Below are positions 8,936-13,995 of a stretch of DNA of 38,231 nt, in pieces (position 1 is the first letter of the stretch; each line of letters opens with the position of its first letter). Under the pieces are notes generated by a model. It ran no database searches and was not told the origin of the DNA. It was given only the letters and a program-made list of their open reading frames with translations. This stretch comes from Candidatus Limnocylindria bacterium. Its GTDB lineage: Bacteria; Chloroflexota; Limnocylindria; P2-11E. The translations under genes were made by a program, and so were the position numbers. The stretch lies in assembly GCA_036523395.1 (NCBI GenBank), contig DATDEH010000062.1:1-38231 (forward strand), written 5' to 3'.

Positions 8936-11900
8936 CTACTCCGTGGAGATCATCTGGTCCACGATGTCCGCGCCCGGCCGCACGACCCGGAAGTGCGCCG
9001 CGGGGTCATCCAGCAGGGCTCGCGTCGCGGCTGCTGTTTCGATCTGACCGCCGTCGTGAAGCAGCGTCGCGTAGCTGCCAACAAGATCGCGCAAGGCGAC
9101 GAGGTCCTCGTCGGAGGACGGCGGCCGCAGGTTGACCTTGGCGCCTTTCGCGAAGCGGTCGCGCAGCCCCCGGTCGTCAAGTCCGCGCGCCGCGTCGTGA
9201 CGCAGGAACACGACGCCGCCGCTCATGCCCGAACAGATCCAGCGACCCGGATCGCCGAGGACGACGGCACGGCCACCGGTCATGTACTCGAACGCGAAGC
9301 CGCGCAGGTCGCCGCCGAAGAGCACGTCGGCGCCCGAGAGCCGGATCCCCGCCCGCGCATCGGCGCCGCCCTGGACGTAGAAACGGCCACGCTGCGCCCC
9401 GTATCCGAAGCACTTCCCCACCGAACCATCGACCCATTCGCCGCTGCGGTTGCGCGCCTTGAGGACGGCGAACGTTCCGCCGAGCGCGGTCTTCGCGGCG
9501 CCGTCCTGCGCGCCGCCGGCGATACGCAGCGACACGCCATCGGTCGAGTACGCGCCGAAGCCGTTGCCCGCGACGGAGCCGTGCCCGAACGACGACGCGA
9601 GCTCGGTGACGGCCGCCCCGGCGATGCGCTGTCGCGCGAGCTGACCGGCGGTCGCGGTCGCGATGAAGCGATGCTCGCTCCCGAGGCGCGGCCGATCCGC
9701 TGCGCCGCCGTCGCGCGCTTCCTCTTCGATCGTCGGTCCGCCGGCCGCAGCGAGGACGCGCAGCTCGCGGCCACCGCGACGCACCGGACCGGCGGGAGCG
9801 AGGAGCCCCGAGAGGTCGACGCGGTCGAGGCCACGCGCCTGCGCGAGGAGATCGGTGCGTCCGACCAGATCCTCGGTCGACGAGACGCCGAGAAGGGCGG
9901 CGATCCTCGCGAGCTCGTCTCGAAGCGCGCCGAAGAAGCGCATGAGGTTCGTCACCGCTCGCTCGAACTCCTGCGGCTCGAAGCGCTTGAGCCCCTTCTC
10001 GACCGCCTCGGCCGGAGAGGTGATCTGCGTCGCGATGCCGACATGACAGGTGTCGAGCTGGCAGCCACGGCAGATCGTGCAGCCGATCGCGACCATCGCC
10101 ATCGTCCCGAACCCGACGCGATCCGCGCCGAGGCACAGCATCTTCGCGACATCGAGCGCGCTCTTCATCCCGCCGTCACACCAGATCTGCACGTGGTCGC
10201 GCAGGCCGTTGGCGACGAGCGCGCGGTGCGCCTCGGTCACGCCGATCTCGGCCGGAAGACCCGCGCGCCGTAGTGCGTGCTGCCGCGCAGCGCCGGTCCC
10301 GCCGTCGTATCCGGACAGCGTGATGATGTCGGCGCCCGATTTCGCGATGCCACAGGCGATGATCCCGACATCCGGCGTCACGGGGATCTTCACGGCGACG
10401 CGCGCGCGCGGATTGACGGTCTTCAGCTCGTGGACGACCTGCGCGAGGTCCTCGATCGAATAGATGTCGTGATTGTTCGACGGCGAGATGAGATCGACGC
10501 CCGGTCGCGCATTGCGCGCAAGCGCCACCTTCACCGACACCTTCTTCGCCGGAAGATGGCCGCCTTCGCCGGGCTTCGCGCCCTGGCCGATCTTGATCTC
10601 GAGGTAGTCCGACGAATTCGCGAGCAGGGCCGAGACACCGAATCGTCCCGACGCGATCTGCTGCCCGCGGTTGCGGGGGTACTTGCCGATGAGGTCAGGC
10701 AGCTCGCCGCCCTCGCCGTTGATGCAGAGCAGATTCATTCGCGCCATCGCCTCGGCATACGCGCGGTACGCGGTCTCCCCCTGCGAACCGAACGACATCG
10801 ACGATATGTACATCGGCGCATCGTGGTCGCCGGTGCGCGTGCTCGCGGCCGCGTTCGTCTCCTCATCGAGCGGCGCGCGGAAATCGAGGAGATGGCGCAG
10901 CGACACCGGATGCGTTCGCTCGAACTCCTCGAGCTTGTCGGCGAACGCGCGGTACGGCTGTTCGCCGTTGGCGACGGCGAGCCCGGTCTTCCAGACGCGC
11001 GGGTAGATACGGAACACCGGCTCGATGCGCGCCGCGCGCCGCTCGCGCAGCATCGTCCCGCGATCGAAGCCGTCGGCGCCGACGCGCTCCCACGAGAGAC
11101 CGTGATCGTCGCTCGCGCAGAACGTCGTGATACCGAGCATCCGCGCGACCTCGGGCGCGACGCCGATCGCGGAGAGCTGCCGGCCGTAGCCGCGGATCTC
11201 GTGCACACCGAGCGTCGAGATGACCTTCTCCATCCCCTTGCGCAGCGCTTCGACGAGGTTCGGCAGCGCATCGGGATCGCCCAGCGACAGCGCGTACTCG
11301 AGCAGCAGGTACGGGTTCACGGCGTCGGCACCGAGCGCGAGCGCGACCATGAGGTCGTGCAGGTTGCGCAGGCTGCCTGCCGACACGATGAGCGCGCACT
11401 CACGCCGGAGCGAGCCGTTGCGCGACGGCTGCGTGATGAGCGCGCGGTGCGCCGCAGCCACGACGAGCAGCGGGTCGAGCCACGCGCGACCTTCTTCGAC
11501 CACGTGGCGGTCCTGGACGACGACGAGCGTCGCGCCGCCGCGAACGCCGCGACACGCCTGCGCGCCGAGACGCGCGAGCGCGTCGCGCGGATGCTCCTCC
11601 CAGTCGCGGTCCGCCTCGAGGATCACGGGAACTCGCGCCCCGTCGGCGGTGAACTGCGCGACCACGTCCTCCACGATCCAGGTGCCAAGCTGGCGCGCGA
11701 GCGAACGGTGATCGTCGCCGCGCAGCCCGGTCTCGGGGGCGTGGCCGCCGAGGAGGATCGGCGTGCGCAGCTCGATCCACCGGCCGCGATCGCCGCGGCG
11801 CGTCGATGCGGCACGCGGCGAAGGACGCGGACCGAGCAGGGCGCGCGTCGAGAAGTGCTCGATCTCGCGCTCGCGGTCGATCGCCGGATTCGTCACGACG

Positions 11901-13423
11901 GCCACGGTCTCGTGCAGGTAGTCGGCGAGGTTCGGATGCGCAGCCGACAGCGCCGCGAGCGGTCCGTCCCATCCCAGAGAGCCGATCGGCTCGTTCCCCG
12001 TCCGCGCGGCGAACTGCGCCATCTTCAGGTCGTCGGGCTCGAACCCGAGCGACGCGAACTGCTGCTCGCGGCGCTGCGAGGGATCCTCGAGCTCGTCGGG
12101 CGGCGTCGCGATCTGCCAGCGCGCGGTCGGCTCGCGCCGCGCGCCGGGGCGATGAACGCTCCCGGGCGCCTCCTCGGGACCGCCGCAGTCGATGCGATCG
12201 CGAATGCCCTCGACCGTGACGCCGCGCGTCGTGCGGTCCGCGACGAACGCCCGGCGCAGCGTGTCCTGATCGAGGAACCGCCAACCGGTGCTCGTGCGGC
12301 GAAGGCCGACGCGCTCGCCGGGTCCCAGCGGATACGGATCGCGGACGTACCGCTCGAGGGGCACGAATCCGCGCTCGCTCGCGAACACCTGCTCGTCGGG
12401 TGTCTCGACGTGCCACAGCGGGCGCAGCCCGAGCGCGTCGACGCCGAAGAGACAGGTGTCGCCGACGCGCGCGAGGAACGCGGCCGGTCCCTGGGCGAAC
12501 GGGCCGAACGCGGCGCGCGACTGGATGTACAGATCCTGCAGCTCCGCGGGCATGCGCTTGATCTCGTTCACGATCGGCGGGAAGAGAAGCTCGATCGCCT
12601 CGATCGGCGTGAGCCGCAGCCCTAGCACCATGCCGCGCAGCACCGCGTCGACGTCCTGCGAGTCGCTGCCGGACCGCGAGAGCGGGATGCGCAGCGCCTT
12701 GGCCTCTTCACGCATCCGCCCGATCGTGTTGATCTCGCCGTTGTGCGCGAACGACGCGAAGGGCTGGACGCGATCGAAGCTTGTGCTCGTGTTCGTCGCA
12801 TAGCGGTTGTGGCCAAAGGCCATCGACGTCGCGAAGCGCGGATCCGCGAGGTCCGCGAAGTAACGCGGGAGCTGATGGCCGGCGCCGCGCAGCTTGTAGA
12901 CCGCCGTGTGGCGCGACAGGCTCACGACCGTCGCGGCCGTGAGGCGCTCGATCTCGACGGCTGCTTCGTAGAGCGCGCGCGAGCCGGGGCCATCGCGTGA
13001 CGGCGTGAGGAGCGCGAGCTGCCAGAAGTGCGGCTCCTCGGTGCGTCCGCGCGGACCGAGGACGCTGCTCTCGGTGGTGAGCTCGCGCTCGACGAGGATC
13101 TCGATGCCGCGACGCGCGAGGCTGCGACGGACGGCCGCCCGGTCCGCGTCGCCGTCGCCCGACGGGATGAACAGATGACCGACGGCGAACCGACCGCTGC
13201 GGACGAGGGTCGAGTCCCGGCCCGATGTGCGAAGGACGTTCGCCCAGAGGGCGCGCGGGATATCGGTGAGGACGCCAGCGCCGTCGCCTTCGCCGTCGAC
13301 CAGGCCCGAGCGGTGCGCGAGCGCGGCCATGCCATGGAGCACGCCGTCCAGTACCTCGCGCGATGGCCGACCGTCCTTCCGGGCGATCGAGACCAAGGCA
13401 CAGGCATCGCGCTCGTCGCTCAC
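8936..13423 (-). CDS. gltB: Glutamate synthase large subunit (GOGAT)
   Basis: 1495 residues, normal length for GltB. It makes two glutamates from glutamine and 2-oxoglutarate. The glutaminase domain begins with DACALVSIARKDG, so Cys8 would be the nucleophile after removal of a 7-residue leader; EGDGAGVLTDIPR and HNRYATNT (near residue 203) and AHNGEINT follow. The central domain is around 660-780, the FMN-binding synthase domain about 865-1180 (PMYISSMSFGSQGE, SGYDGGTGAA), and the 3Fe-4S motif C-x5-C-x4-C is in CTICRGCQLDTC near residue 1114. A GXGXG beta-helix domain (GHGSVAGNGFGAYSTDG onwards) closes the protein. The start is GTG at 13423 with AGGAGG six bases upstream. No small subunit gene (gltD) is nearby, so the electron donor must be encoded elsewhere or be ferredoxin. 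The glutaminase domain is divergent from enterobacterial GltB. Confidence 0.95.
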   Translation of the reverse strand: MSDERDACALVSIARKDGRPSREVLDGVLHGMAALAHRSGLVDGEGDGAGVLTDIPRALWANVLRTSGRDSTLVRSGRFAVGHLFIPSGDGDADRAAVRRSLARRGIEILVERELTTESSVLGPRGRTEEPHFWQLALLTPSRDGPGSRALYEAAVEIERLTAATVVSLSRHTAVYKLRGAGHQLPRYFADLADPRFATSMAFGHNRYATNTSTSFDRVQPFASFAHNGEINTIGRMREEAKALRIPLSRSGSDSQDVDAVLRGMVLGLRLTPIEAIELLFPPIVNEIKRMPAELQDLYIQSRAAFGPFAQGPAAFLARVGDTCLFGVDALGLRPLWHVETPDEQVFASERGFVPLERYVRDPYPLGPGERVGLRRTSTGWRFLDQDTLRRAFVADRTTRGVTVEGIRDRIDCGGPEEAPGSVHRPGARREPTARWQIATPPDELEDPSQRREQQFASLGFEPDDLKMAQFAARTGNEPIGSLGWDGPLAALSAAHPNLADYLHETVAVVTNPAIDREREIEHFSTRALLGPRPSPRAASTRRGDRGRWIELRTPILLGGHAPETGLRGDDHRSLARQLGTWIVEDVVAQFTADGARVPVILEADRDWEEHPRDALARLGAQACRGVRGGATLVVVQDRHVVEEGRAWLDPLLVVAAAHRALITQPSRNGSLRRECALIVSAGSLRNLHDLMVALALGADAVNPYLLLEYALSLGDPDALPNLVEALRKGMEKVISTLGVHEIRGYGRQLSAIGVAPEVARMLGITTFCASDDHGLSWERVGADGFDRGTMLRERRAARIEPVFRIYPRVWKTGLAVANGEQPYRAFADKLEEFERTHPVSLRHLLDFRAPLDEETNAAASTRTGDHDAPMYISSMSFGSQGETAYRAYAEAMARMNLLCINGEGGELPDLIGKYPRNRGQQIASGRFGVSALLANSSDYLEIKIGQGAKPGEGGHLPAKKVSVKVALARNARPGVDLISPSNNHDIYSIEDLAQVVHELKTVNPRARVAVKIPVTPDVGIIACGIAKSGADIITLSGYDGGTGAARQHALRRAGLPAEIGVTEAHRALVANGLRDHVQIWCDGGMKSALDVAKMLCLGADRVGFGTMAMVAIGCTICRGCQLDTCHVGIATQITSPAEAVEKGLKRFEPQEFERAVTNLMRFFGALRDELARIAALLGVSSTEDLVGRTDLLAQARGLDRVDLSGLLAPAGPVRRGGRELRVLAAAGGPTIEEEARDGGAADRPRLGSEHRFIATATAGQLARQRIAGAAVTELASSFGHGSVAGNGFGAYSTDGVSLRIAGGAQDGAAKTALGGTFAVLKARNRSGEWVDGSVGKCFGYGAQRGRFYVQGGADARAGIRLSGADVLFGGDLRGFAFEYMTGGRAVVLGDPGRWICSGMSGGVVFLRHDAARGLDDRGLRDRFAKGAKVNLRPPSSDEDLVALRDLVGSYATLLHDGGQIETAAATRALLDDPAAHFRVVRPGADIVDQMISTE

Positions 13424-13437
13424 GCACTACCTCCTTC

Positions 13438-13470
13438 TAAACAGAAAAGCCCCCCGGTCCTGGGAGGCTT
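13438..13470 (-). terminator. Intrinsic terminator in the gltB leader (putative attenuator)
   Basis: On the minus strand AAGCCTCCC (13470-13462) and GGGGGGCTT (13455-13447) form a 9-bp stem with one G.U pair and a 6-base loop, followed by TTCTGTTT. It ends about five bases before the gltB ribosome binding site, with no gene in between on that strand, so it would end transcripts before gltB unless it is prevented from forming. Its 5' arm AGCCTCC (13469-13463) is exactly complementary to GGAGGCT at 13513-13507, giving an alternative, antiterminating pairing. Confidence 0.6.
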
Positions 13471-13504
13471 CATCGGTCTCGATGTTTCGCTCAGCAGACG
13501 CGAC

Positions 13505-13558
13505 TCAGCCTCCACCTCCCGCGGTGATCGCTGCTGCTGCGGAGCGGACCTTTGTCAC
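13505..13558 (-). CDS. Candidate leader peptide upstream of gltB
   Basis: A 17-codon frame GTG...TGA on the minus strand reads MTKVRSAAAAITAGGGG. Its last Gly codons and stop (GGA GGC TGA) contain the strand that can pair with the terminator's 5' arm, so a ribosome finishing this peptide would free the terminator, while a ribosome paused at the Ala codons would leave the antiterminator strand exposed. There is no clear Shine-Dalgarno sequence; TACAAA lies 8 bases before the GTG and could be a -10 for a leaderless transcript. The frame is also open upstream because it shadows the neighbouring gene, so translation is unproven. Confidence 0.3.
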   Translation of the reverse strand: MTKVRSAAAAITAGGGG

Positions 13559-13620
13559 TGCCGGGATTTGTAGCCGAAGCGAAGGTTGCGGAACAGCGCT
13601 GGAATGGTCGCGAATCGGCG

Positions 13621-13995
13621 TTAGACGCCGGCGCGCGCGGGCAGGACGACCGCGTCGCCGATCCGGACGGGACCGTCGACCGCGATGACGGTGCATATCG
13701 CACCACGGCGTCCGGCAAGCGATGCCTGGAAGGCGACGACGTCGTCGACGCCGAGCAGCTCGCCGATGTGCGTGCACGGCTCGGCCTCGCCGTTCACCCG
13801 CAGGGTGGTCCCTCCCACGCGGATCTCGGTGTCGGGCGTAAGAAGGCTCAGACCGGGCAGGCCGTCGAACGTGATCTGCTCGCGGAGGTCGCCGGGTCGC
13901 AGGCCGAGTGAATCGTGTGTCGAGCGGTCGACGATCAGGACAGCGCGCTTGGTGCGATCGGCGTGCGAGTCGCCGTCGATGCCTCCCGGTGACAA
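13621..13995 (-). CDS. Short MOSC domain protein
   Basis: 124 residues from TTG at 13995. The MOSC core is recognisable: GIDGDSHADRTKRAVLIVDR, LGLRPGDLREQITFDGLPGL, the conserved Cys in GEAEPCTHIG, and AGRRGAICTVIAVDG followed by IRIGDAVVLP-like RIGDAVVLP. MOSC domains bind molybdenum cofactor through the Cys and act in sulfur transfer or reduction of N-hydroxylated substrates. The family usually has another 15-20 residues (first beta strand) before GIDGD; upstream sequence in frame overlaps the GNAT gene and does not look like it, so the N-terminus is short or degraded. It lies two bases after the GNAT stop, so it is the last gene of the MOSC-GNAT-MOSC operon. Confidence 0.78.
   Translation of the reverse strand: MSPGGIDGDSHADRTKRAVLIVDRSTHDSLGLRPGDLREQITFDGLPGLSLLTPDTEIRVGGTTLRVNGEAEPCTHIGELLGVDDVVAFQASLAGRRGAICTVIAVDGPVRIGDAVVLPARAGV

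Follow-up and report, generated by a model that had tools for sequence, protein, structure and literature searches.

The trp, his, leu, thr and ilv attenuators of Proteobacteria and Actinobacteria combine a short frame carrying regulatory codons with two mutually exclusive structures, an antiterminator and an intrinsic terminator, and the second strand of the switch (strand 2) is encoded by the end of the leader peptide. By 2010 leader-peptide systems were known only from Proteobacteria and Actinobacteria; histidine leaders in bacilli were then added (PMC2965389). A stretch of 38,231 nucleotides from contig DATDEH010000062.1 of Candidatus Limnocylindria bacterium (Chloroflexota; assembly GCA_036523395.1), hereafter the window, carries a leader with the same traits in front of gltB, the gene for the large subunit of glutamate synthase (GOGAT). 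This leader very probably (with a probability of about 0.85) corresponds to a trp/his-type ribosome-mediated transcription attenuator which controls gltB through the charging of Ala-tRNA. The proposal is based on sequence and its comparison: the leader frame, the conservation of its Ala codons, two mutually exclusive helices, the promoter spacing and the presence of sister attenuators. From these we infer that the frame is translated, that the ribosome pauses on it and that the signal is the level of Ala-tRNA charging, which would reflect amino-nitrogen status.

The leader covers about 200 bases of the minus strand, on which all features described below are located, and is flanked by a MOSC-domain gene, which ends at 13621, and by gltB (8936..13423, 1495 aa, GTG start at 13423). 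The Pfam domains of the encoded protein (GATase_2, Glu_syn_central, Glu_synthase and GXGXG) identify it as the glutamate synthase large subunit. The leader peptide frame, VTKVRSAAAAITAGGGG and a stop codon (13505..13558), has 17 codons and a GTG start, and includes a run of four Ala codons, GCA GCA GCA GCG (13529..13540), the proposed regulatory codons. Strand 2, GGAGGC (13508..13513), is made of Gly codons of this frame and forms a 5' arm of the antiterminator, while a second 5' arm, GTCGCG (13499..13504), adjoins the stop codon. Strand 3, GCCTCCC (13462..13468), is common to the antiterminator and to the intrinsic terminator hairpin (strands 3 and 4, AAGCCTCCC..GGGGGGCTT, 13446..13471), which is followed by TTTTCTGTT, by the gltB Shine-Dalgarno sequence GAAGGAGG (13430..13437) and by the gltB GTG. 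The initial annotation of this DNA had described the hairpin and its T tract before the Shine-Dalgarno sequence, the 17-codon frame and the exact complementarity between GGAGGCT (13513-13507) and AGCCTCC (13469-13463), with 37 bases between them; these descriptions are correct to the base. The antiterminator pairing it recognized also stands, but not its extent: the helix is longer and includes a conserved GTCGC(G)/(C)GCGAC segment right after the stop codon. In the window GTCG pairs with CGAT (13472..13475), which is CGAC in most relatives.

In the proposed mechanism, transcription would begin at the leader GTG or a few bases before it, and a ribosome would start the 17-codon frame without a Shine-Dalgarno sequence. 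When Ala-tRNA is ample, the ribosome would reach the stop codon and cover GGAGGC and GTCGCG; GCCTCCC would thus remain available for pairing with GGGGGGC, and termination would occur before gltB. When Ala-tRNA is scarce, the ribosome would pause on the GCA run. GGAGGC-TGA-GTCG would then pair first with CGAT-GAA-GCCTCC, the terminator would be blocked and gltB would be transcribed. The attenuator reading, its strands and its direction (read-through leading to termination, pausing on Ala to antitermination) had already been suggested by the initial annotation and are supported by the conservation of the frame and of the alternative pairing together with terminator covariation. However, its further suggestion that an untranslated leader would allow antitermination is doubtful: the terminator is the structure predicted for such a leader, and strand 2 would be unavailable in one genus, g5, where it would be held in a protector helix (CCTCGTCC/GGACGAGG).

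Conservation was assessed on 22 curated leaders, the window's own included, associated with gltB orthologs from the same genus, family and order. The frame, its stop codon, the antiterminator and the terminator are kept in all 22, as well as in a 23rd leader obtained by a model search (L150, G011), and are distributed over at least eight genera and two families. This answers, in the affirmative, the earlier question of whether the frame is conserved in relatives. Of 24 genomes with a readable region upstream of the orthologous gene, 23 have this arrangement. The remaining one, G006 (L021, G006:C1), has no leader but carries a -10-like TTAGCG directly before the gltB ATG, and its gltB may itself be leaderless. 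Two genomes fall outside this count, G025 because its contig ends 33 nucleotides upstream and G012 because the gltB start is not on the contig; the ortholog search yielded no gltB for G019 and G024.

The Ala-rich stretch is the sole part common to all leader peptides compared, which include VTKVRSSAAAATAAGGGG, MTSARLAAAAATTTGGGG, VGTRISAAAAVATGGGGG, VSDRVTSSAAAATSEDEA, VNTAATIIATITTAAAEVRG, VTSSSAASAITIPAAAEDIA and MSISSTATAASARSGA. A run of at least three Ala is present in 20 of the 22 leaders, where Ala accounts for 32% of codons vs 14% in gltB. The choice of Ala codon is also distinct: GCA represents 63 of 121 leader Ala codons (52%) vs 99 of 3608 in gltB (2.7%). The Fisher p of 8e-58 treats related sequences as independent and is less informative than the magnitude of the shift. 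The leaders are rich in Ser and Thr as well, but in their usual codons, without a shift to rare ones. It has been argued on theoretical grounds that low-usage regulatory codons raise sensitivity if the tRNA reading them is scarce relative to its use (PMC1183508). The leader stop codon is found in three registers relative to the structure (GGC-TGA-GTCGC, GGC-CTAGTCGC and GGC-TAG-GTCGC) and the spacing between stop and helix shifts by 1 nucleotide between clades. The Ala run is in frame in every register, which means that coding and structure are kept separately.

The leader frame has no Shine-Dalgarno sequence. A -10-like hexamer, TACAAA in the window (13567..13572), is located 8 nucleotides before the start codon. 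The corresponding TANNN(T/A) motif ends 6-10 nucleotides before the leader start in 22/22 cases vs 7/186 for the other start codons of the same regions. A -35-like block, (c)TGTTCC (13590..13595), lies 17 nucleotides from the hexamer; it reads CTGTTCCGCAACC in most relatives, and a CTGTTCC-like block is kept 16-18 nucleotides upstream of the hexamer in most of them. Transcription is therefore predicted to start at or beside the leader GTG and, because the hexamer sits so close to the start codon, the peptide is probably translated leaderless. As a separate observation, conservation around the -35-like block (CTGTTCCGCAACCT, 13583-13596 of the window) extends past what a -35 hexamer would cover in most relatives, and the block may double as a regulator site.

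Both helices are supported by comparison with shuffled sequences. A terminator scan returns this hairpin alone, as three overlapping hits all on the gltB strand, where shuffles expect 0.4. The terminator pairs in 22/22 leaders with compensatory changes (hand-made register), and its covariation exceeds that of all 500 shuffles in a MAFFT alignment. The antiterminator is formed by GAGGC-xxx-GTCGC with GCGAC-xxx-GCCTC; these arms are 87% paired, vs at most 47% when they are slid against each other. In leader L013 the shared strands have changed together (GGGGCC/GGCCCC and GAGGGG). Compared with dinucleotide shuffles, helix energies give a mean z of -3.3 for the antiterminator and -3.9 for the terminator over the 22 leaders (-3.8 and -2.5, respectively, for the window's own leader). 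The minimum free energy of the whole leader is not unusual (z -0.7), and the evidence thus rests on the individual helices and on conservation. When a ribosome footprint is simulated by masking 15 nucleotides, beginning with the first codon of the Ala run, the thermodynamic model folds the RNA preceding strand 4 into the antiterminator in 22/22 leaders.

Several observations nevertheless weigh against an alanine-responsive attenuator. Covariation in both stems had been proposed as a check; it is found for the terminator, but that of the antiterminator is not above shuffles, because its sequence hardly varies. The terminator is computed to be the more stable of the two helices in 17/22 leaders, which implies that control must be kinetic and decided by the order of synthesis. 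Protector helices (pairing of strands 1 and 2) are visible in several clades, clearly only in g5, but overall are no stabler than shuffles (mean z -0.4), and the protector is not supported as a general feature. The preference for GCA could in part serve to leave the Ala run unpaired. Finally, alanine is not a direct product of gltB, although glutamate donates an amino group to alanine.

Alanine as the sensed amino acid is supported by sister attenuators of the same lineage. A DNA search of the window's own genome identified a second leader, MARFVFFVIVIELPQGAGGGGALS and a stop codon, before ilvE. The ilvE leaders carry Val, Ile and Phe codons, and one was found again in another genus. Pattern and model searches also identified leaders with Thr runs before aspartokinase (VTLSTRITVGTTTTTTEVEAS and a relative) and a Thr leader before asd (aspartate-semialdehyde dehydrogenase). 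The Thr and branched-chain residues of these leaders match the pathways they precede. Together with the codon conservation, this points to alanine charging as the signal at gltB.

These Thr-run leaders, from three genomes (L148, G010:C205; L152, G007:C10; L154, G014:C9), share the same GTAGCGCG style of antiterminator. Additional leaders of related design were observed. Met-rich leaders beginning with MAQRISMSMPTAPMAG, MTHRAMSMSMAMASGG and MRLVLIPPMPIAPMPG and followed by terminators are located before the threonine synthase gene thrC (L122, G000:C95:3715-3819; L155, G001:C4; L151, G025:C143); sensing of Met there may perhaps be explained by a competition of both pathways for a homoserine-derived substrate. 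An Ile/Leu/Pro leader, MAFRLLPIILPAPIPGPISRSGG and a stop codon, precedes a gene resembling pyridoxal phosphate (PLP) aminotransferases (L121, G000:C1:3234-3340; L156, G004:C91). A leader rich in branched-chain residues, VSQPIIVIVPVDLLVLERAHQTLGGGRT and a stop codon, with a terminator (L124, G000:C95:5915-6022) precedes a frame without family match, which lacks a usual start codon where one would be expected.

The alternative that survives best, although unlikely, is that the leader is indeed read by a ribosome but reports the overall speed of translation, or the rarely used GCA codon or its tRNA (UGC), rather than alanine supply. The rarity of GCA in gltB is in its favor, as is the tRNA set: tRNA-Ala with CGC and GGC anticodons are found, but none with UGC among the G000 tRNAs examined (L157-L188) in what is an incomplete assembly. 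However, GCG, GCC and GCT occur beside GCA among the leader Ala codons, which differ at the third base, and the pathway-matched residues of the sister leaders indicate that the lineage uses leaders as amino-acid sensors. Concerning the tRNA set, a tRNA-Ile (GAT) is located at a contig end in G000, suggesting that tRNA-Ala (UGC) may be encoded in an rRNA operon missing from the assembly.

It is far less probable that a protein or a small molecule, for example through a glutamine- or 2-oxoglutarate-sensing RNA, switches both pairings while the frame is incidental. Elsewhere gltB is under other RNA and protein controls. However, in the whole window only a tRNA reaches the gathering threshold of the Rfam covariance models, and no leader family, T-box or glutamine riboswitch does; an Rfam search was among the checks proposed by the initial annotation, and its reading survives this one. 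Moreover, the loop between the antiterminator strands varies in length and sequence, unlike an aptamer, and the Ala-codon frame persists in 22/22 leaders while its register to the structure shifts. A constitutive terminator with a conserved leader but no regulated switch is equally improbable: no helix has better support than the terminator, but conservation of the antiterminator arms is just as strong in pairing and energy, and includes a segment outside the terminator. Least credible is a regulatory run of glutamine codons (CAG CAG CAG, read in the +1 frame). Glutamine would be a better fit for gltB, and the run reaches at least three codons in 8/22 leaders, but it is broken in 14/22 and its frame has no start near the conserved promoter (GTGA/ATGA places a stop at the start codon in most leaders), so this reading was rejected.

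The gltB attenuator appears restricted to one order. Matches to a covariance model of the leader (R1) are confined to it among 177 genomes of the class. A scan of 400 genomes of the phylum gives a single outside match (G218), which sits where a repetitive frame ends and has no leader frame; because R1 was built from the leaders described here, it would miss attenuators of a different kind in other parts of the phylum. No comparable Ala leader was found in 20 regions upstream of gltB from Thermus, Meiothermus, Bacillota and one member of Solirubrobacterales, which contain only chance Ala-containing frames. In G010 (L153/L029, C13) a related leader, VAQVAISSAKSTDAGAPAGGA and a stop codon, is located before rlmN, and the gltB that follows rlmN shows only 35% identity, as though the attenuator had kept its place while the glutamate synthase was replaced.

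A broader proposal appears probable, if less firmly so than attenuation of gltB itself: in one order of Chloroflexota, Ala-tRNA charging, read by a leaderless peptide, would be the signal for nitrogen assimilation through GOGAT, within a lineage-wide set of leaderless attenuators (Ala with gltB, Thr with aspartokinase and asd, branched-chain residues with ilvE, Met-rich with thrC). Alanine would then be one more amino acid with a dedicated attenuator, and tRNA charging would control glutamate synthase, an enzyme central to nitrogen assimilation. The proposal also provides a specific hypothesis for the sensing of nitrogen status by uncultured soil Chloroflexota.

Among described elements, the best sub-threshold leader hit in Rfam is Phe_leader (RF01859), a weak match over the terminator half (21.7 bits) which is far under the gathering score of 55. 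The leaderless or upstream open reading frame (uORF) attenuators of actinobacterial ilvB (PMC13236596; PMC10272879) similarly place a leader peptide upstream of the attenuator, but with branched-chain codons and ilv genes. The Corynebacterium ilvBNC leader peptide was reported to have no ribosome binding site (Morbach 2000 as cited in PMC11550727). The nearest idea found is the mycobacterial whiB7 uORF, linked to alanine starvation (Poulton 2024 as cited in PMC10727445 and PMC13236596). As presented in those citations, it shares uORF-based attenuation tied to alanine shortage, but controls a transcription factor rather than gltB, and ribosome stalling of many different kinds triggers its response. 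The open-licence literature provided no description of a leader-peptide attenuator for gltB or alanine, or of any in Chloroflexi; leader-peptide attenuation would therefore extend to a phylum for which no report was found, and translation of the peptide would apparently begin at the very 5' end of the mRNA. Compared with the trp, his, leu, thr and ilv attenuators, the gltB leader differs in its Ala codons, its target, its Chloroflexota host and the lack of an Rfam leader at threshold. The mechanism itself is classical; the regulated gene, the amino acid and, as far as found, the phylum are new.
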